Source of the DNA: Tenacibaculum sp. | GTDB lineage: Bacteria > Bacteroidota > Bacteroidia > Flavobacteriales > Flavobacteriaceae | Reading direction: 5' to 3' | DNA length: 64,000 nucleotides | Assembly (NCBI GenBank): GCA_020629275.1 | Contig: JAHDDQ010000002.1 | Coordinates: forward strand, 1-64,000 | In this document: positions 12,416 through 37,605 of the stretch, piece after piece | How the letters are laid out: each line of letters starts with the position of its first letter | Numbering within the stretch: the stretch's first letter is position 1 | Position numbers and translations under genes: made by a program | Notes under the pieces: model-generated | What the model was told of the DNA's origin: nothing | What the model saw: the letters and a program-made list of their open reading frames with translations, nothing else | The model's database searches: none

Positions 12416-13426
12416 TTAATCATCAATGGCTTTATATCTATTTTGAGCATTTTGTAGCTTGTACTGGATTTGTTTTCTAAGTCTTTCAGGTTTTATAATC
12501 TCTATGGAATCTCCATAACCAAGTAACATTCGCTCTAACTCAAAATTAATTTTCACAAAAATATTAAAGATAACACCATCTTCGGTATGTTCAATTAATC
12601 GTTGAGACTTATGAAAAGGTTTAGTAATAACATAAGGTGCATGTTGTTTCTCAATCCAAAACTGTACGCGCTGTGGTCGAGAATTAGGAACGGTAGCACC
12701 AACAACATCTTTGTAAAATTTATCACCATCAATCTCATAATCGATATACGTAACTTCCAACATAGTTTCAATGGCATGCATTCTGTCAAGAGCCAACGTA
12801 ATGTATTTACCTTTTACACAAGCCAATAAAAACCAACGATTGTTATACTCTTTAATTAGTTGAGGATGAATAATCATATCTGCTGCATTCCTTGCCTTAA
12901 ACGACTGATAAGTAACTTTAATCACATTTTTGTGTTGAATAGCGCTGTACAAAGGATCGATAAAATGCAATCCTTTCAATTGTTCATTTTTATCTAAATG
13001 AATAATCGCTTTTTTATCTTTTTGTGAAGAATATACCGAATCTTCTAAGCGTTGTAAAACACCATCCATTTCTTTGAATAGTGAAAAATCTTTAAACTGA
13101 CGCAAAACTTGAATAGCATCATTCATAATTTTCACATCATTCTCTGTTACAGGAATATTCATGATTGAATATCCGTCTTCAGCATAACGATAATATTTTC
13201 GATTATATACTTCAATAGGCGCATTATACCCCAATTTATCACTTCTCATCATCTGAATATCCAGTTGTACAGTTCGTTTACTAACATAAACATCCTTTCC
13301 TTCGTATTCATATAAAGCATCGGAACACGCTTCAATTAAATCATCTAAAGTCCATTTACGCATGGTATTTCGTAAGCATTGATCTATAGTTTTATACCGA
13401 ATAAGTGCATTTTTATTAGATGCCAT
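12416..13426 (-). CDS. WYL-domain transcriptional regulator
   Basis: 336 residues: an N-terminal winged-helix region (about residues 1-85, with SKRTVQLDIQMM), a linker, and a WYL ligand-binding domain at about 160-250 (VIKVTYQSFKAR, HPQLIKEYNNRWFLLA, ALDRMHAI) followed by a C-terminal extension. WYL regulators often sense nucleic-acid ligands and control DNA-damage or defence genes. It overlaps the HD-domain gene by 11 bp, so both are one operon. That operon is divergent from the rtcB operon at 14242-15812, whose promoter carries a repeat-like element at 14129-14190. It is the best candidate for the regulator of the RNA-repair genes, by context only. Confidence 0.85.
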   Translation of the reverse strand: MASNKNALIRYKTIDQCLRNTMRKWTLDDLIEACSDALYEYEGKDVYVSKRTVQLDIQMMRSDKLGYNAPIEVYNRKYYRYAEDGYSIMNIPVTENDVKIMNDAIQVLRQFKDFSLFKEMDGVLQRLEDSVYSSQKDKKAIIHLDKNEQLKGLHFIDPLYSAIQHKNVIKVTYQSFKARNAADMIIHPQLIKEYNNRWFLLACVKGKYITLALDRMHAIETMLEVTYIDYEIDGDKFYKDVVGATVPNSRPQRVQFWIEKQHAPYVITKPFHKSQRLIEHTEDGVIFNIFVKINFELERMLLGYGDSIEIIKPERLRKQIQYKLQNAQNRYKAIDD

Positions 13427-14128: not shown

Positions 14129-14190
14129 TACGCAAAAACATTGCGCAATATGATTCAATATTTGCAGTGTTATTATGAAAAAGATATCGT
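14129..14190 (+). promoter_or_regulatory. Promoter/operator of rtcB operon, copy A of a two-copy element
   Basis: Contains TACGCAAAAA, TGCGCAAT, a -7 box AATATTTG at 14157-14164 and GTTATTATGAAAAAGAT just downstream. The same blocks in the same order and spacing occur at 35346-35407 in front of the permuted tRNA cluster. No TTG is found at the usual -33 distance; the CGCA-rich block sits there instead, which suggests an activator-dependent promoter. Confidence 0.7.
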
Positions 14191-14241
14191 TAGAAGTGGG
14201 AAAAACTATGAAAAGTAAAAATTTAAAAGAAGCTAACAAAC

Positions 14242-15812
<1,571 letters not shown>

Positions 15813-27538: not shown

Positions 27539-28225
27539 TTGAAACCAGCGCATATAAAAGAACAAAGACGAAAAACTGTTCGAAATATTCGAAAAAGGCA
27601 ACGAGCAATTTATCAAGAAATTAAGGAGTTAGGATATAAAAAATTAGAAGAACCTATACGACACGGTTGGTTTAAAGAAATTGTACTAACTGAAAATATA
27701 GAACGCTATAAAAATAAAATATACATTCAAGAATTATACGATTGTATAGAAAAAAGTTTTTGGGGCAGAACAAAAGAAGAGGCCGATAAACAATGGTTTT
27801 GTCAAATTTCAAAATTTTTAATCTATCGAGATTTTCCAACAATTTCTAAAAAACAATTTAACAGATTAACATATAAAGCACAAGCTATGTGCACAATATA
27901 TTCATACAGAGACGAAAATAAGAAGCTAAGAAAACGATTTTATGTAAGAATTCCGAAAGGAACGTATAGAATAAAATATACAAGAGCATACATAACACAC
28001 TCTAAAAGAATAGATCCAGATCTAGAAAGTGAGGCAGATCTTTTAGAACAACAGTTATACAAGAACGGTTATTATAATATTTGGCAAGACAGTTATTGGA
28101 AAAATTACTGGAGAAGACTTAGTGAACAAAAACAAAAGATGCAAATAAGAAAACAGTTAAATGCTCTTAAACAATATCCATTAACGGATATTATTAATGA
28201 AAAAATATCATGGGAAAAAAATTAA
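27539..28225 (+). CDS. Basic protein of unknown function, first gene of the rtcB-prfH operon
   Basis: 228 residues, starting with TTG; the only upstream ATG (27514) runs into a stop within three codons. The N-terminus is strongly basic (KEQRRKTVRNIRKRQRAIYQ), followed by aromatic-rich segments (IRHGWFKEIVLTENIERYKN; SFWGRTKEEADKQWFCQIS) and a Tyr/Arg-rich centre (KGTYRIKYTRAYITHSKRID). It overlaps the rtcB start by 16 bp. RNA binding fits the composition and company. I do not recognise the family and see no catalytic motif. Confidence 0.7.
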   Translation: MKPAHIKEQRRKTVRNIRKRQRAIYQEIKELGYKKLEEPIRHGWFKEIVLTENIERYKNKIYIQELYDCIEKSFWGRTKEEADKQWFCQISKFLIYRDFPTISKKQFNRLTYKAQAMCTIYSYRDENKKLRKRFYVRIPKGTYRIKYTRAYITHSKRIDPDLESEADLLEQQLYKNGYYNIWQDSYWKNYWRRLSEQKQKMQIRKQLNALKQYPLTDIINEKISWEKN

Positions 28226-29601
28226 AAGGAAAAGACCTAATCAATCTAGGCTTTCCAAAAAATAACAGCATAAACATCGCCTTAGGGCAAATTAATAGAT
28301 ATCGTAAAAGAGAAAAGAAAGAACGTATTCTCGAAGAAGCAAAGCAAGTATTATTAGCACCAGAAAAATATAAAGGAAATGCTATTTGGGGTAAAGTAGC
28401 AGAAGGGTTGGTAAAACCTGTAGAAGTACAGTTTCATAAATTAAGGAACACGAGAGCGCCTTTTAGTATTTACGGGGAAAACGAAATAGACGATATAGCA
28501 AAATATCAATTATACGACGCTTTAAAATTACCAATAGCAAAACAAGGAGCTTTAATGCCCGATGCACATGCAGGTTATGGTTTACCAATTGGAGGTGTGT
28601 TAGCTACAGAAAATGCAGTAATTCCTTATGGTGTAGGTGTAGATATTGGTTGTAGAATGTGTTTAACAGTATACCCGGTAAAAGCTTCTTATTTGAAAGG
28701 GAAACAGCATCAATTGGAAAATATATTATCTGAACATACCAAATTTGGAATGTATGAAACACATAAAATAAAACATGATCATGAAATATTTGAGCGAGAT
28801 GAGTTTCAGGATATTCCGTTATTAAAACGTTTAAAAATAAAAGCTTATAATCAATTAGGAACGTCAGGAGGAGGTAATCATTTTGTTGAGTTTGGAATAG
28901 TAAACATCACCGATGAGAAGAATGAATTTCAACTTCCAATAGGCGATTATGTGGGGTTATTAACACACAGTGGAAGTCGTGGACTTGGAGCGAATATTGC
29001 GAAACACTATACCTATTTAGCTACAAAACAATGTCCGTTACCGAAAAATGTACAGCATTTGGCTTGGTTAGATATGGATACACATGACGGACAGGAATAT
29101 TGGTTAGCGATGAATTTAGCAGGTGACTACGCAAAAGCTTGTCACGATAATATTCATAAACGAGTTGGAAAACTGTTGGGCTCTAAAGCAATTGCTAAAA
29201 TTGAGAATCATCACAATTTCGCATGGAAAGAACAAGTAAACGGAGAAGAGTTAATAGTTCATAGAAAAGGCGCAACGCCAGCTAATAAAGGAGCATTAGG
29301 TATTATTCCAGGTTCTATGACAGCACCAGGATATATTGTTCGCGGTTTAGGGAATTCAGAAAGTTTAAACTCAGCTTCACATGGAGCAGGAAGAAAACAT
29401 TCTCGAAGAAAGTGTAAAGAGAAATTTACTAAAAGCGATATCAAACATCAGTTAAATATGAATGGTGTGAGTCTTATAGGAGGTGGAATTGACGAAGCTC
29501 CAATGGCTTATAAAAACATAAAAAAAGTCATGGCGAATCAGCAAGAGTTAGTTGAAGTTTTAGGAACATTTACACCGAAGATTGTACGAATGGATAAATA
29601 A
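28210..29601 (+). CDS. rtcB2: RtcB-family RNA ligase (paralogue 2, RtcB2/PrfH-associated type)
   Basis: 463 residues with the ligase motifs GVGVDIGCRMCL, GTSGGGNHFVEF, LTHSGSRGLGAN, NHHNFAW and SHGAGRKHSRRK. It shares the fold with the ligase at 14427 but differs in every loop, so it is a separate lineage and not a recent duplicate. The downstream prfH gene identifies it with the RtcB2-PrfH type of rRNA/tRNA repair operon. In that pair, as published, PrfH frees nascent peptide from ribosomes with a cut decoding centre and RtcB2 re-ligates the RNA. It overlaps the basic protein gene upstream by 16 bp. Confidence 0.93.
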   Translation: MGKKLKGKDLINLGFPKNNSINIALGQINRYRKREKKERILEEAKQVLLAPEKYKGNAIWGKVAEGLVKPVEVQFHKLRNTRAPFSIYGENEIDDIAKYQLYDALKLPIAKQGALMPDAHAGYGLPIGGVLATENAVIPYGVGVDIGCRMCLTVYPVKASYLKGKQHQLENILSEHTKFGMYETHKIKHDHEIFERDEFQDIPLLKRLKIKAYNQLGTSGGGNHFVEFGIVNITDEKNEFQLPIGDYVGLLTHSGSRGLGANIAKHYTYLATKQCPLPKNVQHLAWLDMDTHDGQEYWLAMNLAGDYAKACHDNIHKRVGKLLGSKAIAKIENHHNFAWKEQVNGEELIVHRKGATPANKGALGIIPGSMTAPGYIVRGLGNSESLNSASHGAGRKHSRRKCKEKFTKSDIKHQLNMNGVSLIGGGIDEAPMAYKNIKKVMANQQELVEVLGTFTPKIVRMDK

Positions 29602-29818: not shown

Positions 29819-30379
29819 ATGAAAATTATGGGAGCAAATCATAACATAAAAAGATACGGAGAATTATGGCCCGATTACCGAATAGAATTAGGGCTTAAAA
29901 TATTAGAAAAATTAAAACAATGGATTGTAATATCAGGAGGATGGGCTTGGCATTTTATGTCAGAGATAAATCATAAAGAATACAAACACGCACATGATCA
30001 TAAAGACATTGACATTTTTGTAAATCCTAAAAATGTAGGAGTAGTGATGCAGATTCTTTTAGAAGAAGGATTCGAAAAAGTATGGACACGTTACGATCAT
30101 TTACCAAGCAAAGAAAATTTTAGACGTTATGAAAAAGTAGAATGGTTAGACATAGGAAGAGAAGTACGAACAACTATCGATTTCTTTGAATCAAAAACAG
30201 TTGAAAGTATCCAATCCAACGGATGGAATGTTGTAGCACCTAAAACGTTATTAAGTTATTATAGTAATATTCATTCTAGCGATAAATATTGGGCAGTTAA
30301 AACAGCAGTTAAACTTTTAGCAAAAGGTAAAAATCCAGTAGGAAATCCGTTGTTATCAAAAAATCCATTAGGAAAATAG
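29819..30379 (+). CDS. MNT-fold nucleotidyltransferase-like protein
   Basis: 186 residues. ISGGWAWHFMSEI followed by HDHKDIDIFV gives the G-G-x-A/H...D-x-D pattern of polymerase-beta-like nucleotidyltransferases, with a third acidic residue in RTTIDFFES. Such enzymes add nucleotides to RNA ends, proteins or small molecules. It is placed 5 bp before prfH and 217 bp after rtcB, so mending or priming RNA ends before ligation is a reasonable proposal. From memory, comparative studies of RNA-repair loci have noted a novel nucleotidyltransferase linked to diverse ligases; whether this is that family needs a profile search. Confidence 0.75.
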   Translation: MKIMGANHNIKRYGELWPDYRIELGLKILEKLKQWIVISGGWAWHFMSEINHKEYKHAHDHKDIDIFVNPKNVGVVMQILLEEGFEKVWTRYDHLPSKENFRRYEKVEWLDIGREVRTTIDFFESKTVESIQSNGWNVVAPKTLLSYYSNIHSSDKYWAVKTAVKLLAKGKNPVGNPLLSKNPLGK

Positions 30380-30384
30380 AAAAA

Positions 30385-31077
30385 ATGGAAACAAAAATAA
30401 TACAGTTAACAGCAGCCAAAGGTCCATCAGAATGCGCATGGGTAGTTGCTAAAGTGTTAAAGATATTTTTAAAAGAAGTAATTCAAAATAAGATTGAATA
30501 TAAAGTTATTCATAAAGTTAACGGTTTAGAAAACGGAACAGTTCAATCCGTAACTATTGAATTAAAAGGAGGTCAATTGACGACCCTTTTAAGTAATTGG
30601 ACAGGAACAATTCAATGGATAGGAACATCAACTTTTAGAAAATATCATAAACGAAAGAATTGGTTTATTGGTTGTTATGAATTGGATATATGTGAAGAAA
30701 ACGCAATTTCAGAGCATGAAATTCAATTTCAAGCGATACGAAGTTCAGGACCAGGTGGGCAACATGTAAATAAAGTAAGTTCTGCAATACGCGCAAAACA
30801 TATACCAACTGGAGTTCAAGTATTAGTTTCAGAAAGTCGGTCGCAGCATCAAAATAAAAAAATCGCACGACAACGATTAAAAGAAAAAATAACGAATCAT
30901 AATACCAATCAGTTAAAAGAATCTATTAAGAATGAATGGGAGAATCACCTAACATTACAAAGAGGTAATCCAGTACGAGTTTTTAAAGGTTCAGATTTTA
31001 AACAGCAAAAAACAGAAAAATCATTCAAAACAAAACGTAATCAATTAAAAAATGATCTACGTAAACAGTTAGAATAA
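30385..31077 (+). CDS. prfH: Peptide chain release factor H homologue
   Basis: 230 residues. The catalytic loop RSSGPGGQHVNKVSSAIRA carries the GGQ motif that enters the peptidyl-transferase centre and hydrolyses peptidyl-tRNA. No stop-codon-reading domain 2 motif (PxT/SPF) is present, as expected for PrfH. The C-terminal half is basic (SQHQNKKIARQRLKEK). Known PrfH proteins act on ribosomes with damaged 16S decoding centre together with RtcB2. Spacing of 5 bp from the nucleotidyltransferase indicates co-translation. Confidence 0.92.
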   Translation: METKIIQLTAAKGPSECAWVVAKVLKIFLKEVIQNKIEYKVIHKVNGLENGTVQSVTIELKGGQLTTLLSNWTGTIQWIGTSTFRKYHKRKNWFIGCYELDICEENAISEHEIQFQAIRSSGPGGQHVNKVSSAIRAKHIPTGVQVLVSESRSQHQNKKIARQRLKEKITNHNTNQLKESIKNEWENHLTLQRGNPVRVFKGSDFKQQKTEKSFKTKRNQLKNDLRKQLE

Positions 31078-32067: not shown

Positions 32068-32613
32068 ATGAAAAGAAACAAAATTATAATAATAGACTTA
32101 GAAGCTACTTGCTGGAATGGAAAAATTCCAGCAGGTCAAGTTAATGAAATCATAGAAATAGGAATTTGTATTTTAGATACAAACACGGGAGAAATTTATA
32201 AAAATGAAGGAATTTTAATAAAACCAGAACGATCTAAGGTGAGTCCTTTCTGTACTGAGTTAACTACAATAACTCAAGAATTATTAGATAAAGAAGGAAT
32301 TTCTCTTAAAGAAGCATGTAATATTCTTAGAGAAGAATATAACCCGAAACATTATGTTTGGGCAAGTTATGGTCAGTATGATTTAAACATGCTTAAAAAG
32401 CAATGTAAATTTAGAGGAATAGAATATCCGATGTCTCAAGAGCATATTAATGTGAAGGAGCTTTTTACAGAAGTAAAAGGAATATCAAGAAAAGTTGGTA
32501 TGAAAGGAGCATTAGGAATGTTAAATATTCCTTTAGACGGAACACATCATAGAGGAATTGACGATGCAAGAAATATTGCTAAAATTTTAAATTGGTGTTT
32601 AATTAACAAATAA
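32068..32613 (+). CDS. DEDDh 3'-5' exonuclease (DnaQ/ERI-1-like)
   Basis: 181 residues with all exonuclease motifs: Exo I IIIDLEATCW (Asp-x-Glu), Exo II ASYGQYDLNML (Asp) and Exo III GTHHRGIDDARNIA (His and Asp). The length and the EATCW form are those of the RNA-trimming ERI-1/KapD branch rather than the polymerase III epsilon subunit. In this operon it could trim damaged or extended 3' ends of tRNA or rRNA before ligation. A terminator follows 10 bp after the stop, so it ends the repair operon. Confidence 0.87.
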   Translation: MKRNKIIIIDLEATCWNGKIPAGQVNEIIEIGICILDTNTGEIYKNEGILIKPERSKVSPFCTELTTITQELLDKEGISLKEACNILREEYNPKHYVWASYGQYDLNMLKKQCKFRGIEYPMSQEHINVKELFTEVKGISRKVGMKGALGMLNIPLDGTHHRGIDDARNIAKILNWCLINK

Positions 32614-33921: not shown

Positions 33922-33994
33922 GACAAGGTGGCTGAATGGTGAAGGCAGCAGACTGCAAATCTGTTTTTTATGAGTTCGAATCTCATTCTTGTCT
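33922..33994 (+). tRNA. tRNA-Cys (GCA)
   Basis: Canonical cloverleaf: acceptor GACAAGG with TCTTGTC (6 pairs and one G-T), anticodon stem GCAGA/TCTGT with loop CTGCAAA (T33, anticodon GCA), T-arm ATGAG-TTCGAAT-CTCAT. No encoded CCA. Confidence 0.85.
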
Positions 33995-34037
33995 CGATGA
34001 TTTAAGTAATCTCAAACAGATTTTGAAATTAAAAAGA

Positions 34038-34120
34038 GGAAGTGTTGAGCTATTAATTGGCTCGCCAGACTGTAAATCTGGTCTTTAAAAAGCTTATAGG
34101 TTTGAGTCCTATCACTTCCA
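34038..34120 (+). tRNA. tRNA-Tyr (GTA)
   Basis: Acceptor GGAAGTG/CACTTCC perfect, D-stem GAGC/GCTC, anticodon stem CCAGA/TCTGG with loop CTGTAAA, long variable region typical of bacterial Tyr, T-arm ATAGG-TTTGAGT-CCTAT. Discriminator A. Confidence 0.87.
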
Positions 34121-34124
34121 TAAA

Positions 34125-34198
34125 AGCTCTTTTAACTCAATTGGTAGAAGAGTTGGATATAAGTCTTATCTAGTTTTGGTCCGAATCCTAGATGTAGT
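34125..34198 (+). ncRNA. Degenerate tRNA-like element
   Basis: A D-arm is clear (AACTC, then AATTGGTAGAA, then GAGTT), the anticodon-like stem is GGATA/TATCT with loop TAAGTCT, and a T-loop-like TCCGAAT follows. The acceptor strands pair in only about 3 of 7 positions. Position 33 of the loop is A, not the near-universal T. It may be a decayed tRNA or a specialised tRNA-like RNA. Confidence 0.5.
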
Positions 34199-34206
34199 AT
34201 AAAATT

Positions 34207-34279
34207 GGTTCATTGTGGTTAATGGCTAACCTTCCCGACTGTCTCTCGGGAGATACGAGTTCGATTCTCGTATGAACCG
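34207..34279 (+). tRNA. tRNA-Asp (GTC), with pyrimidine at position 37
   Basis: Acceptor GGTTCAT/ATGAACC perfect; D-stem GGTT/AACC; anticodon stem CCCGA/TCGGG with loop CTGTCTC, giving anticodon GTC but T at position 37 where a purine is expected; T-arm ACGAG-TTCGATT-CTCGT. Confidence 0.8.
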
Positions 34280-34284
34280 CAAAA

Positions 34285-34357
34285 CTGGGAAGATAACGAT
34301 TGGTTGTTTACCTGCTTTGGATGCAGGAGGTTGTAGGTTCGAATCCTACTTCTCAGA
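34285..34357 (+). tRNA. tRNA-Pro (TGG)
   Basis: Acceptor CTGGGAA/TTCTCAG (one G-T), anticodon stem CCTGC/GCAGG with loop TTTGGAT (anticodon TGG), T-arm GTAGG-TTCGAAT-CCTAC. Six bp after the Asp gene. Confidence 0.83.
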
Positions 34358-34383
34358 CTAAACTCTAGAAAGGAGTGTGTATA

Positions 34384-34455
34384 ATGACTTTGGATTGTAC
34401 GATGTAATTTCAATGGCTGTGAAAGAGAAACAGTACAATCCGAAAGTCATTTTTA
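34384..34455 (+). ncRNA. Long hairpin with tRNA-anticodon-like inner loop
   Basis: ATGACTTTGGATTGTAC (34384-34400) pairs with GTACAATCCGAAAGTCAT (34433-34450): 17 pairs and one bulge. Inside is a 5-bp stem TTTCA/TGAAA with a 7-nt loop ATGGCTG. T5 follows, so it could be a terminator for the tRNA-Cys-to-Pro cluster or an independent structured RNA. Confidence 0.6.
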
Positions 34456-34524
34456 AATTCTAATAAAGGAGATTATAGATAAAAGAAAAAATAAGTTGCT
34501 CTAAATTATTAGTAAATAATTAAA

Positions 34525-34608
34525 GCCAGGAATGGTGTAATTGGTAGGCATACTAGATACAGAATCTAGTATCATCAAGGTTTGAGAGTTTGAGTCTTTT
34601 TTCCTAGA
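34525..34608 (+). ncRNA. tRNA-Leu(CAG)-like element lacking T33
   Basis: 5' strand GCCAGGA and D-arm TGTAATTGGTAGGCA resemble tRNA-Leu. Anticodon stem CTAGA/TCTAG has loop TACAGAA: anticodon CAG, but A at position 33. The variable region is long, the T-arm is GAGAG-TTTGAGT-CTTTT with G-T pairs, and the acceptor pairs in 5 of 7 positions. Confidence 0.55.
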
Positions 34609-34639
34609 CTATTGAGAAGATTTTTTTTCTCTAAAAGAT

Positions 34640-34731
34640 AAATCTGTGATGTAATGGTTAGCATGCAAGATTCTGATTAAAAGTCATCCATTATGGATGA
34701 TGAGAATATAGCTCGAATCCTAGAGTCAACC
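34640..34731 (+). ncRNA. tRNA-Gln(CTG)-like element with extra hairpin
   Basis: D-arm GTAATGGTTAGCAT and CAAGA-TTCTGAT look like tRNA-Gln with anticodon CTG. The 3' side of the anticodon stem is replaced by a longer structure: ATTCT/AGAAT outside and TCATCC/GGATGA with a 5-nt loop inside (34684-34700). A T-loop-like CTCGAAT follows but its stem is poor. Confidence 0.45.
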
Positions 34732-34759
34732 TATAAATCGCTATAATAAATTATAGGTT
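34728..34759. terminator. Hairpin closing the first tRNA cluster
   Basis: AACCTATAA/TTATAGGTT, 9 bp with a 14-nt AT-rich loop, overlapping the end of the Gln-like element. No clear T run, so termination is uncertain. Confidence 0.4.
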
Positions 34760-34840: not shown

Positions 34841-35326
34841 ATGAAAATTACGCAGCAAAAATGGAGAAATTTTAAAGGTAAAGTATTTGACGAATCAGTA
34901 ACTGAAATTATCGAAAATGCTATTGTAAGAGAACAACGGAAAGGATATCGTCTAAAAATTTGTGTAGGTTCAGATTCTCAGGGGTATAAGTCACATATTG
35001 AATATGCTACAGCAATTGTGGTTTTAAGAGAAGGGAAAGGAGGGTTTATGTTTATGAGGAACTATAAAGGAACAAAAGACATACAAATTAAAGAACGTAT
35101 GCTTAAAGAAGTAGCTATGTCTGTAGAAGTAGCATATGAACTATGTAACATATTAGACAAATATGGTGTTGACTTAGAGGTTCATGCTGATATTAATACA
35201 AATCCAAAGTTCGAATCTAATGTAGCATTAAAAGATGCTATGGGATATATTTTAGGTATGGGCTTTAAGTTTAAAGCAAAGCCTTATGCATTTGCTAGTT
35301 CATCTTGTGCAGATAGTGTAGTATAA
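34841..35326 (+). CDS. RNase H-fold protein, YkuK/DUF458 type
   Basis: 161 residues. Strand-rich start with acidic residue (LKICVGSDSQGYKSHIEYATAIVVL, Asp in GSDSQ) and a second acidic strand (LEVHADINTNPKFESN) fit the ribonuclease H-like fold of the YkuK family. Biochemical function in that family is not settled; nuclease or Holliday-junction-type activity has been proposed from the fold. It is placed between the two tRNA clusters and just before the promoter of the permuted cluster, so action on tRNA-like RNAs is a reasonable hypothesis. Confidence 0.75.
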   Translation: MKITQQKWRNFKGKVFDESVTEIIENAIVREQRKGYRLKICVGSDSQGYKSHIEYATAIVVLREGKGGFMFMRNYKGTKDIQIKERMLKEVAMSVEVAYELCNILDKYGVDLEVHADINTNPKFESNVALKDAMGYILGMGFKFKAKPYAFASSSCADSVV

Positions 35327-35345: not shown

Positions 35346-35407
35346 TACGCAAAAAGAGTGCGCAATGGAGTTAAATATTTGCAGCGTTATTATGAAAAAG
35401 ATGTCGT
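35346..35407 (+). promoter_or_regulatory. Promoter/operator of the permuted tRNA cluster, copy B
   Basis: Same block order as at 14129-14190: TACGCAAAAA, TGCGCAAT, AATATTTG (-7 box at 35374-35381), GCAG, GTTATTATGAAAAAGAT. By eye, four fifths or more of 62 positions agree. Expected transcription start near 35388-35392. Confidence 0.72.
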
Positions 35408-35441
35408 AACAAGGGGAGAATTGTGAAGAAAGAAAAAGTAG

Positions 35442-35470
35442 CCTCATTACAACGATGGATTGTGATGAGG
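35442..35470 (+). ncRNA. Strong hairpin at the start of the permuted-cluster transcript
   Basis: CCTCATTACAA pairs with TTGTGATGAGG (11 pairs, one G-T) around a 7-nt loop CGATGGA. No T run follows, so this is an RNA structure and not a terminator. Confidence 0.6.
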
Positions 35471-35482
35471 TAGATTAAAGAA

Positions 35483-35689
35483 AACTCTTTAGTTTAAAAG
35501 GAAGAGCTGTGGTAAAAGATTTAGACTAAACTGTGGAGTGATTGGATGATGTTGTTAGTGATGTATTTGCTAATGAATAGATTTTGCACAAGCACCGGAA
35601 TCAACAGGATTGAAAGTAGGGAAGTACATTTAGAGCCAATCTGCTTTACGTAATTAAAGAGTATCAGTTCGAATCTGATAAGAGATACA
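35483..35689 (+). ncRNA. tRNA-like element interrupted by about 130 nt
   Basis: 5' part: acceptor strand AACTCTT, TA, D-stem GTTT/GAGC with loop AAAAGGAA (35483-35507). 3' part: T-arm ATCAG-TTCGAAT-CTGAT and acceptor strand AAGAGAT then ACA (35663-35689). Acceptor pairing 6 of 7. Where the anticodon arm should be is a long insert with nested stems GTAAAaG/CTTTAC and GATTGG/CCAATC. Canonical order, unlike the three elements that follow. Confidence 0.5.
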
Positions 35690-35897
35690 AGTTCATTGAA
35701 AAAATAAAGAGTGTCATTATGAAGATAAATAACAACGGATGAATCTGTTCAATAATGAAAAAGATTGTTTCGCTTCCACTTATAATGATAAGAAAAATAT
35801 CAAGCTAGTCTTGTTGTGTGTTTCTGTATAGCACCATTGTATATATACTTACAAATATTGTATCAGATATGTATATGCAACTTGACTTGAAGGTTTT

Positions 35898-35919
35898 GAT
35901 TATTTACCAAAAAATAATC
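35898..35919 (+). other. Hairpin just before permuted element 1
   Basis: GATTATT/AATAATC, 7 bp, loop of 8. It ends four nt before the 3' strand of the anticodon stem of the next element, and could mark its processed 5' end. Confidence 0.4.
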
Positions 35920-35923
35920 TCAC

Positions 35924-36000
35924 ACTATAGGTCGCGGGTTCGAATCCCGTCATAAACTCATAGTTTATGTAGTTCAGTTTGGTTAGAACAATAGATTTCA
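35924..36000 (+). tRNA. Circularly permuted tRNA-like gene 1 (junction in the anticodon loop)
   Basis: Order in DNA: ACTAT (anticodon stem 3' strand), AGGTC variable loop, T-arm GCGGG-TTCGAAT-CCCGT, acceptor 3' strand CATAAAC at 35951-35957, TCA then TA, acceptor 5' strand GTTTATG at 35963-35969, TA, D-arm GTTC...GAAC, A, ATAGA (anticodon stem 5' strand), TTTCA. Acceptor pairs 7 of 7, D-stem 4 of 4, T-stem 5 of 5 with one G-T, anticodon stem 4 of 5. Anticodon identity depends on how the halves join and is not assigned. Confidence 0.7.
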
Positions 36001-36083
36001 GAGTTCGTGGGTTCGAATCCCACTCCCGAAAAATCGGGATGGCAGAGTGGTCAAATGCGTTGGACTGAAAATCCAATAACTCT
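36000..36083 (+). tRNA. Circularly permuted tRNA-Ser-like gene 2 with GAA anticodon (junction in the variable arm)
   Basis: Order in DNA: AGAGTT (variable-arm 3' strand), C, T-arm GTGGG-TTCGAAT-CCCAC, acceptor 3' strand TCCCGAA, AA, acceptor 5' strand ATCGGGA at 36033-36039, TG, Ser-type D-arm GCAGAGTGGTCAAATGC, anticodon arm TTGGA-CTGAAAA-TCCAA, T, AACTCT (variable-arm 5' strand). Acceptor 6 of 7, T-stem 5 of 5, anticodon stem 5 of 5, variable arm 6 of 6. The body is that of a serine tRNA but the anticodon reads Phe codons. Confidence 0.75.
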
Positions 36084-36105
36084 CAGGCACTTTTATGTCT
36101 GTTTT

Positions 36106-36187
36106 TAGCACAGGTTCGATTCCTGTCAAGGCCACCAAAAATAGGCCTTGTAGCTCAGTTGGTAGAGCACTACACTCATAATGTAGG
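36106..36187 (+). tRNA. Circularly permuted tRNA-Met(CAT)-like gene 3 (junction in the variable loop)
   Basis: Order in DNA: TAGC, T-arm ACAGG-TTCGATT-CCTGT, acceptor 3' strand CAAGGCC (36127-36133), A, encoded CCA, AAAATA, acceptor 5' strand GGCCTTG (36144-36150), TA, D-arm GCTC-AGTTGGTA-GAGC, A, anticodon arm CTACA-CTCATAA-TGTAG. All stems are perfect: 7, 4, 5 and 5 pairs. The encoded CCA sits inside the gene, upstream of the 5' half. Confidence 0.8.
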
Positions 36188-36305
36188 ATATCCAAAACTT
36201 GTGAATAACAGGTTCTACTTTTAGATGGTAGTTTTTTAAGCACATCACCTTGTAAAACTGATGAACAAAATGAAGTATTGTTAATGAGTTTATTTATAAA
36301 CACTC

Positions 36306-36425
36306 ATGAAAATACCAGATAAAATGTTTAATGTTAAAATTAGATGTAAACCTTTTAGAAGTCAATTGGTAGTAATTTTAAACGATCAATCCATTTCTGA
36401 AATTATACATCAACATTTAATATGA
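36306..36425 (+). CDS. Short ORF (39 aa) between the array and slipin
   Basis: Starts MKIPDKMFNVKIRCKPFRSQ and continues with LVVILNDQSISEII. Amino-acid make-up is plausible for a protein. It lies 80 bp before the slipin gene. A loose FRS/FRP pattern is shared with the ORFs at 33239 and 33728. Existence uncertain. Confidence 0.35.
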   Translation: MKIPDKMFNVKIRCKPFRSQLVVILNDQSISEIIHQHLI

Positions 36426-36504
36426 TAATTTGATCCGTAGGTTTAGGAGCATTTTCAATACTTCATTTTAAAAAAATAAAAAGAAAAATTTAAATAAAAA
36501 TAAG

Positions 36505-37605
36505 ATGAAAAGAGTTAGAATCCTTAGAGGAAAAGTAGGGTTAGTGTTCAGGAACGGTAATTACCAAAAGATAATTAAAGAAGGAGTACATTGGTTAGGT
36601 TTTAATCAACAAGTAGTTGTTTACGATAAGTCAAGTCAATTTCACCCAACAATTGCAACCGAAATTTTATTACGAGATGAAAAATTAGTAGACATGCTAG
36701 AAGTGGTTGAAGTAAAAGATACAGAGTTAGTATTAGTTTACGAAAATGAGAACTTCAAAACGGTATTACAATCAGGGAGATATATGTATTGGAAAGGGCT
36801 TATAAAAAGAGTCTTTACAAGAGTAGATATTAGTAAAATTGAAATTACTGAAACGATTAATAAAGCACTATTATCAAATTATGAAATTGCAAAATACATA
36901 AGAACTTTCGAAGTATTCTCATATGAAAAAGCCATTTTATTAATAGATGATGTGTATAGGCAGATATTAACAGGAGGTACGTATAGGTTTTGGAAAAACA
37001 ATACTTCCGTTAAGATTGCTAAAGTTGATACGCGTCAGTTACAATTAGAAATTACTGGTCAAGAATTGTTAACTAAAGATAAAGCTAACATTAGAGTTAA
37101 TTTTTACACAAATTATAAAGTTAAGAGCATTGAAAAAGCATTATTGTATACTAAAGATTATGAAAAACAATTATATGTAGCAATGCAATTAGCATTACGA
37201 GAGTATATTGGAACTTATACGTTAGATGAATTATTAGAAAATAAAGAAGATATAGCTAAAGCAGTTTTAATTGCAACAAAAGTGGTTGCTGAGAAACTAG
37301 GAGTTGTAATTGTAAGTTGTGGAATTAGAGATGTGATTTTACCTGGTGATATGAAAGAAATTATGAATCAAGTATTAGTTGCACAAAAGAAGGCACAAGC
37401 TAATATTATTACAAGGCGAGAAGAAACAGCATCTACAAGAAGTTTATTAAATACCGCTAAGTTAATGCAAGACAATGAGATGTTATATAAGCTGAAAGAA
37501 ATGGAATACGTAGAAAAGATTGCAGACAAGATTGGTGAAATTACCGTTTCTGGAAATGGGAATATGGTAAAACAATTAAAAGAACTTTTTGCTGCAACTA
37601 AATAA
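36505..37605 (+). CDS. SPFH/Band-7 (slipin) family protein
   Basis: 366 residues. Two beta-rich N-terminal repeats of about 80 residues (RGKVGLVFRNGNYQKIIKEG; DTELVLVYENENFKTVLQSG; SYEKAILLIDDVYRQILTGG) lead into a Band-7 domain (ITGQELLTKDKANIRVNFYT; GTYTLDELLENKEDIAKAVL) and a C-terminal coiled coil (QVLVAQKKAQANIITRREET). No membrane helix is seen, so it may form soluble oligomeric rings. SPFH proteins are scaffolds, and from memory Band-7 proteins have been reported next to RtcB together with a tRNA-like RNA. It is the last gene before the right border repeat and probably binds the array RNA or the repair enzymes. Confidence 0.88.
   Translation: MKRVRILRGKVGLVFRNGNYQKIIKEGVHWLGFNQQVVVYDKSSQFHPTIATEILLRDEKLVDMLEVVEVKDTELVLVYENENFKTVLQSGRYMYWKGLIKRVFTRVDISKIEITETINKALLSNYEIAKYIRTFEVFSYEKAILLIDDVYRQILTGGTYRFWKNNTSVKIAKVDTRQLQLEITGQELLTKDKANIRVNFYTNYKVKSIEKALLYTKDYEKQLYVAMQLALREYIGTYTLDELLENKEDIAKAVLIATKVVAEKLGVVIVSCGIRDVILPGDMKEIMNQVLVAQKKAQANIITRREETASTRSLLNTAKLMQDNEMLYKLKEMEYVEKIADKIGEITVSGNGNMVKQLKELFAATK

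Follow-up and report, generated by a model that had tools for sequence, protein, structure and literature searches.

The window, by which we mean the whole stretch of 64,000 nucleotides of Tenacibaculum sp. DNA that was analysed, carries between 26.5 and 37.6 kb an RNA-repair island that brings together RtcB, PrfH, a TPR protein, an exonuclease, tRNAs, a PF04308 protein, an array of permuted tRNA-like units and a Band-7 protein. Reading along the forward strand, on which all of the following features lie, one meets the RNA ligase RtcB (28210..29601; Pfam PF01139), a putative nucleotidyltransferase (29819..30379) that matches no Pfam family and has a weak NCBIfam match (E 5.9e-4), peptide chain release factor H, PrfH (30385..31077; TIGR03072 above cut-off), a DEDD 3'-5' exonuclease of the RNase_T type (32068..32613; Pfam and NCBIfam), an array of tRNAs in ordinary order, called by ARAGORN as Cys, Tyr, Asp, Pro and Leu (33922..34609), and an RNase H-like protein (34841..35326; Pfam PF04308). 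Downstream of the permuted array comes the Band-7/SPFH (slipin) protein, 366 residues long (36505..37605; Pfam PF01145), whose best named match, among the matches listed, comes from an uncultured Tenacibaculum with 80% identity. The N-terminal third of this protein (36505-36920) lies outside its best Pfam stretch (140-307) and resembles repeated short segments ending in G..FW.

Beside the ordinary tRNA array, three stretches (34130-34200, 34646-34740 and 35590-35692) look like odd or degenerate tRNAs that ARAGORN does not call, one of which has an additional hairpin separating the anticodon arm from the T-arm. Far upstream of the island, the window holds a divergent WYL-domain regulator on the reverse strand (12416..13426; PADLOC WYL models) and, on the forward strand, a second, divergent RtcB-family protein (14427..15812; NCBIfam RtcB matches below their cut-offs). 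Of ten proteins compared with the PADLOC defence models, just two gave matches, namely the WYL regulator and the exonuclease. A phage or viral origin was considered and rejected: viral contigs showed no Band-7 relative, phage records showed no match, and the setting is that of a Bacteroidota chromosome.

Three permuted units within a probable larger RNA

The array spans 35924-36187 and consists of three units, each of which runs, in the order of the DNA, from the T-arm to the 3' acceptor strand, a short linker or cap, the 5' acceptor strand and the D-arm. A preliminary description of the locus had claimed this permuted order for three consecutive units, and it is indeed present where it was placed, with T-arm and 3' acceptor strand coming first in all three. 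The description had also stated that the halves complement one another at the breaks, and this holds for each unit. Unit 1 (35924..35995, forward strand) is closed by an anticodon stem, ACTAT/ATAGA, with four of five pairs, and is devoid of an anticodon loop; its acceptor strands, CATAAAC and GTTTATG, are joined by the cap TCATA. Unit 2 (35997..36084, forward strand; pattern scanner) has a class-II body closed by the variable arm AGAGTT/AACTCT, and an anticodon arm that reads TTGGA[CTGAAAA]TCCAA. Unit 3 (36104..36187, forward strand; pattern scanner) keeps an intact Met(CAT)-like anticodon arm and is opened in the variable region; its 7-bp acceptor, CAAGGCC/GGCCTTG, encloses a linker, ACCAAAAATA, that encodes CCA. 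The acceptor pairings of 7/7, 6/7 and 7/7 that had been reported are correct as counts, but the 7-bp stem of unit 2, with its 2-nt linker, cannot form: the acceptor of that unit is a stem of 6 bp capped by 4 nt, TCCCGA-AAAA-TCGGGA.

Once rotated back into ordinary order, all three units are called as tRNAs by ARAGORN (Glu, Phe and Met), against none of 600 shuffled versions (200 mononucleotide shuffles per unit), and so pass the comparison with shuffled sequence that had been proposed as a check; unrotated, none is called in the window. The ordinary tRNA model of Rfam yields partial or rearranged matches, at 36040-36126 and 36144-36200. With R1, a covariance model of our own built from 65 sequences, unit 1 scores 73.7 bits, the window itself being among those 65, while unit 2 (35997-36064) scores 42.0 bits and unit 3 (36104-36174) 54.2 bits.

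The extent of the element appears to be greater than first reported. The array sits within a conserved stretch that we read as a single RNA, from about 35365 to 36469, which would start at a palindromic operator-like element, TACGCAAAAAGAGTGCGCA (35346..35364, forward strand), and end at an inverted repeat. A promoter-like TATTTGCA lies 3' of the operator-like element, at 35376-35383. A conserved 5' domain (35798..35918, forward strand), folded by RNAalifold from 65 sequences, comprises an outer CAAG/CTTG helix, a hairpin of the GUGUU/AGCAC type and a GUAUA hairpin. The 3' domain (36238..36469, forward strand), delineated from the sequence and from RNAalifold on the window with 14 relatives, contains a CATCA/TGATG hairpin at 36243-36263 and a closing helix in which AAAATGAAGTATTG (36267-36280) faces CAATACTTCATTTT (36456-36469), a perfect 14-bp inverted repeat in the window.

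Within the window, the core pattern of the operator occurs only twice, at the 35346 site and at 14131. The second copy, TACGCAAAAACATTGCGCA (14129..14147, forward strand; pattern search), is followed by a 62-codon frame (14242-14430) located between it and the divergent RtcB-family gene. The stretches 14129-14200 and 35346-35420 display the same operator/promoter-like module, and the WYL regulator adjoins the first of them; taken together, this suggests that the rtcB-family gene at 14427 and the structured RNA are under one regulon, the WYL-domain regulator being a candidate for binding of the operator. In the 5' stretch of the RNA, positions 35404-35415 read GTCGTAACAAGG, which we take to be identical to the decoding-site region of 16S rRNA; the idea of an rRNA mimic was dropped, as the string is seen in none of seven close relatives (L025-L031) and is probably there by chance.

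Conservation and covariation upstream of Band-7 genes

Relatives were collected via the Band-7 protein: the best 80 of at least 533 named relatives, together with the window and seven further relatives, gave 88 regions, in which the scanner sought a T-arm, at least six of seven acceptor pairs and a D-arm, on the same strand as Band-7 and no more than 1300 nt upstream of it. One or more permuted units lie 5' of the Band-7/slipin gene in 81 of these 88 Bacteroidota regions and in 74 of the 80 named loci (the best 80 of at least 533), with one to three modules per RNA and 148 units altogether; when doubtful units are removed, 136 remain, still distributed over 81 of the 88 regions. Among the genera given by record names are Tenacibaculum, Winogradskyella, Aquimarina, Kordia, Maribacter, Dokdonia, Chitinophaga and Fulvivirga. 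Broken tandem tRNAs are ruled out as the source of this pattern, since 140 of the 148 units have no normal-order alternative; none of the eight exceptions falls in the window, whose units are without normal-order partners.

In 63 of the 81 first units of these RNAs, the break falls in the anticodon stem and four or five of its five pairs are present, against 127 of 1539 slid positions, units not having been preselected by that stem. Later units often keep the anticodon arm intact and, according to the scanner, are opened in the variable region. The earlier argument, that three differing break points speak for a non-accidental origin, is supported. An origin by chance can be excluded, because the units are kept in 81 of 88 regions (the named ones among them being the best 80 of at least 533) and because they covary.

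Covariation was measured on 65 units, in which standard pairs make up 97.8% of the permuted structure, a percentage inflated by a selection made partly on pairing; 20 of its 21 pairs are altered on both sides, in 331 cells. The covariation score is 0.673, when shuffled alignments have a mean of 0.208 (none of 500 as high) and slid versions reach at most 0.186. The comparison of related genomes for compensatory base changes, which the preliminary description had put forward, comes out in favour of the permuted structure. Without prompting, RNAalifold recovers from the 65 sequences both the permuted module and the three helices of the 5' domain. ARAGORN calls as tRNA all of 69 rotated units, none of 69 after shuffling, 32 of 68 when the halves are mismatched, and one of 69 in native order.

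Seven regions escaped the scanner. In two of them (L031 and L042) a unit can be recognised by eye, L031 scoring 61.8 bits with R1; for three (L076, L107 and L108) the upstream sequence is shorter than 500 nt; in the last two (L100 and L104), the operator and Band-7 are present with no permuted RNA between them. What we read by eye in these last two loci, within some 170 nt upstream of Band-7, is the succession of an operator, a Tyr-like tRNA gene and Band-7. The operator core pattern, located 166-171 nt 5' of Band-7 in L100, L104 and L107, is found in 58 of the 88 upstream regions (which include the best 80 of at least 533 named relatives), at least two of these matches (L039 and L112) looking like chance.

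For the best 80 of at least 533 named loci, scanning of the minus strand returned no match, and 30 other matches were found on the plus strand of the flanks, which by our reading are mostly junctions of tandem ordinary tRNAs. Within the flanks examined of the same 80 loci (again the best of at least 533), the RtcB query finds a match in only 46, while a homologue of the WYL regulator is present in 28 and one of the PF04308 protein in seven. In a genome of the same genus (L009 / L032, G015:C1:946484-946732), an 83-codon remnant of Band-7 lies 3' of an rtcB frame, the RNA and most of Band-7 not being seen.

Matches to covariance models were rejected as a measure of distribution. Below its cut-off, the YrlA model matches seven of 14 control genomes, R1 matches 136 of the 148 genomes of the order, and among six R1 places that were inspected, three (G024, G052 and G042), scoring as high as 66.5 bits, turned out to be tandem ordinary tRNAs; the best YrlA match outside Band-7 loci, 37.5 bits in G024, corresponds to tandem ordinary tRNA-Thr genes. 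At the two top R1 places (G070 and G087; 76.6 and 75.1 bits), permuted units accompany a Band-7 homologue of 56% identity, and ordinary tRNAs are absent. A further place, in G053 (L124, G053:C1:2023900-2026500; R1 67.0 bits), has permuted units according to both scanner and R1 and no ARAGORN tRNA, and a Band-7 homologue is absent from the 2.6 kb examined, so that the tie to Band-7 is not absolute; this is perhaps another setting of the same RNA.

Likeness to known tRNA-like RNAs

The YrlA model of Rfam (RF02553) matches positions 35904-36017 over its whole length, with 39.3 bits (E 7e-7) for a gathering cut-off of 69, and unit 3 at 36109-36168 with 34.8 bits; its best relative is the homologous unit of G003, at 56 bits, also below 69. 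According to the Rfam consensus, YrlA comprises, as does a unit of the array, a T-arm, a capped acceptor hairpin, a D-arm and a closure at the position of the anticodon stem. The array differs by scores that remain under the cut-off and by its one to three modules, some with full anticodon arms, embedded in a longer conserved stretch, and the outer YrlA stem fits the RNA of the window poorly. The preliminary description knew of no bacterial case beside an RNA ligase; as regards topology this does not hold, for YrlA is encoded with rtcBA in the rsr-yrlBA-rtcBA RNA-repair operon of Salmonella (passages of PMC7790460 and PMC8394870). In published accounts, YrlA mimics tRNA and acts as a tether for Rsr and PNPase (passages of PMC8394870), and it was proposed to inhibit an anticodon nuclease that leaves it uncut (passages of PMC7790460). 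While the partner in YrlA systems is Rsr, the protein encoded beside the array is a Band-7 protein, and a Ro60/TROVE gene was found in none of 39 genomes, including that of the window (89% complete), the control search matching one of 14. Having the topology of YrlA without its partner, the array is not filed here as a Y RNA.

In 2016, Burroughs and Aravind reportedly linked SPFH/Band-7 RNA-repair gene clusters with a cognate tRNA-like RNA. Going by that definition, we do find here a tRNA-like RNA adjoining Band-7/slipin in an RNA-repair gene cluster. The association of Band-7 with a tRNA-like RNA in repair systems would then be known already, and the RNA of these authors is very probably the one that contains our array. 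Titles and abstract beginnings in the literature gave no paper on a permuted tRNA-like RNA beside Band-7, from which we do not claim its absence from print.

The RtcB2-PrfH repair module, in which RtcB and PrfH come together as they do in the present island, guards against colicin E3 and not against colicins D and E5 (passages of PMC9223846); band-7 and SPFH are not mentioned in that article. A 2023 paper on RNA permutations deals with ribozymes, 5S rRNA, group II introns, tmRNA, rRNA, SRP RNA and tRNA genes, and its relevant passages name no permuted tRNA-mimic array (PMC10085705). Permuted tmRNA is, like the array, a bacterial RNA that has its 3' acceptor strand ahead of the 5' strand, and it is processed into two separate RNAs (passages of PMC10085705); the corresponding two-piece model, RF04321, gives a weak match of 23.2 bits, below its cut-off of 47. 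Circularly permuted tRNA genes are described in red and green algae and in Thermofilum (passages of PMC3978253), where, as in the array, the 3' half comes first, the intervening sequence is short and breaks occur in the anticodon loop and elsewhere; the transcripts of these genes are circularised via a BHB motif and matured, whereas the array has mostly short caps and many anticodons unsuited to their body.

Outside Bacteroidota, slipin homologues were found in nine records of a plasmid collection, and in each of the five that were examined, tRNA-like elements lie no more than about 400 nt 5' of slipin. The leader of Subdoligranulum is permuted, with T-arm, capped acceptor and D-arm (36.3 bits). 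Those of E. coli and Citrobacter combine a T-arm with a capped acceptor-like hairpin, have no clear D-arm and score weakly (17.9 and 16.3 bits). Burkholderia and Photobacterium possess elements in normal order (L116:5590-5710 and L117:5635-5770), in one of which a GAAA tetraloop, by our reading by eye, replaces the anticodon loop. In none of these five records did the pattern scanner itself detect a permuted unit 5' of slipin. Across these homologues, the tRNA shape is kept and the order is not.

What the modules may do

Of 136 units, 84 have acceptor caps 3-5 nt long (the 52 tetraloops include 12 GNRA and nine UMAC), and stems capped so tightly would probably not accommodate a discriminator base together with CCA; linkers beginning with NCCA number eight in 142, unit 3 of the window included. 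In the 69 units with an open stem, the 5' anticodon strand is followed by TT in 25 and by mixed pairs of bases in the others, and the 3' strand is preceded by C in 32 and by A in 22: these flanking bases do not form an anticodon loop. Among the 66 units with a perfect anticodon hairpin, by contrast, U33 is present in 64 and R37 in all, the commonest anticodons being TTT (18) and CAT (14), with the stop-reading TTA and TCA in one unit each. As in a circularly permuted tRNA gene, the 3' half precedes the 5' half and the two complete one tRNA; consistency of the anticodon with the body, judged for the Leu type, is not found, a Leu anticodon being carried by only five of 21 Leu-type bodies. Many units would misread if they were used as decoders.

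The preliminary description had envisaged permuted tRNA genes matured by RtcB: the breaks would be cut, RtcB would make a circle, and RNase P and 3' enzymes would open the acceptor linker to release functional tRNAs. That the rotated units are complete tRNAs for ARAGORN, that RtcB and the exonuclease belong to the same island and that the linker of unit 3 encodes CCA are in keeping with this pathway. We nevertheless think it quite improbable, in view of the short caps, the rarity of NCCA linkers, the missing loop bases of open-stem units, the discord between body and anticodon, and the E. coli and Citrobacter elements, which lack a full body; of the possibilities put forward at the time, we prefer the other, in which the RNAs are decoys or scaffolds resembling tRNA. 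We would give similarly little credence to the view that bacteria have here their first circularly permuted tRNA genes, in the form of at least some units and most notably of unit 3, which has a 7-bp acceptor and an encoded CCA; upon RNA damage, RtcB would circularise the cut transcript and release emergency tRNAs with unusual anticodons. Still less should be expected of functionless, degenerate remnants of a tRNA array. The ordinary array and the odd remnants do adjoin the permuted one, and tandem ordinary tRNAs can mimic permutation in the scanner and in R1, as the 30 flank matches illustrate, yet covariation, by which we take this reading to be refuted, conservation across families and the scarcity of normal-order alternatives all oppose it.

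It seems likely, as far as sequences can tell, that the array does not represent clustered tRNA genes but forms part of a large structured non-coding RNA with tandem tRNA-mimic modules. Each of these would fold as a tRNA body, joined to the long RNA by way of the anticodon stem in unit 1 and of the variable region in units 2 and 3, its acceptor end being closed by a cap, and it is this mode of joining and capping that would place the DNA in circularly permuted order. Array and flanking domains would form one transcript, induced together with repair genes (rtcB) upon RNA damage; its binding partners would be the Band-7 protein or enzymes that handle tRNA, and its several tRNA-shaped surfaces may recruit, gate or bait enzymes that act on tRNA, such as RtcB, the exonuclease or tRNA-cutting toxins. 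For a scaffold, unit 1 together with the 5' domain would be required; for a bait, it would be the anticodon loops of the later units. An action of this tandem tRNA-mimic RNA with Band-7 in RNA repair is the mechanism best supported at the level of sequence, where the permuted topology, its location 5' of Band-7, the operator common with an rtcB-family gene and the helix order of YrlA are apparent alongside conservation and covariation. The modules probably arose from two tandem copies of one tRNA gene which, losing their outer halves, would have left a 3' half, a spacer and a 5' half; this would account for complementary acceptors and for linkers that resemble spacers, as in CTTCCCC-GCAAAATTTATCATTAAAAAT-GGGGAAG. 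Several findings count against a mimic: the U33 and R37 of later units exceed the needs of a mere scaffold, and unit 3 of the window has the 7-bp acceptor and encoded CCA of a real permuted pre-tRNA. The YrlA score below its cut-off, the low specificity of covariance matches, the place in G053, the RtcB matches in only 46 of the 80 loci (within the flanks examined) and the lack of the RNA in L100 and L104 weigh on the same side.

A special case of tRNA mimicry, to which we attach a modest probability, is that of a decoy or bait: the modules would be sacrificial substrates or inhibitors of anticodon nucleases (toxins, phage-triggered), sparing the real tRNAs, and cuts in their loops would be harmless or resealed by RtcB. 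The canonical anticodon loops of later units fit this role, and so do the two leading anticodons, TTT and CAT, both of which belong to tRNAs cut by known anticodon nucleases: PrrC cuts tRNA-Lys. VapC cuts tRNA-Met (passages of PMC7790460). The absence of any anticodon loop in unit 1 and the wide variety of anticodons argue the other way, as does the fact that fragments of YrlA were undetected in Salmonella, YrlA being no substrate of that nuclease (passages of PMC7790460).

With the tandem tRNA-mimic RNA as the preferred reading, a well conserved and probably large RNA that has no Rfam family of its own becomes tied to bacterial RNA repair, and mimicry of tRNA by permutation is suggested to recur with a second protein partner, Band-7 in place of Ro60. 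The occurrence of permuted and normal order upstream of slipins in different phyla constitutes a natural experiment, indicating that it is the shape that matters and not the order. The function of slipin and of a tRNA-shaped RNA in repair operons becomes testable in common bacteria, as the E. coli slipin leader is found in 1624 of 5426 complete genomes; it bears no RNA annotation in the one genome examined. In Citrobacter, rtcR is divergent from slipin. The E. coli slipin leaders (L113:7690-8010 and L118:6001-6321) come with a sigma-54-like promoter, TGGCAC-N-GC. In Anabaena, loss of the repressor TrcR raises expression of the slipin alr0740 42-fold and that of rtcB 77-fold (passages of PMC10272220).
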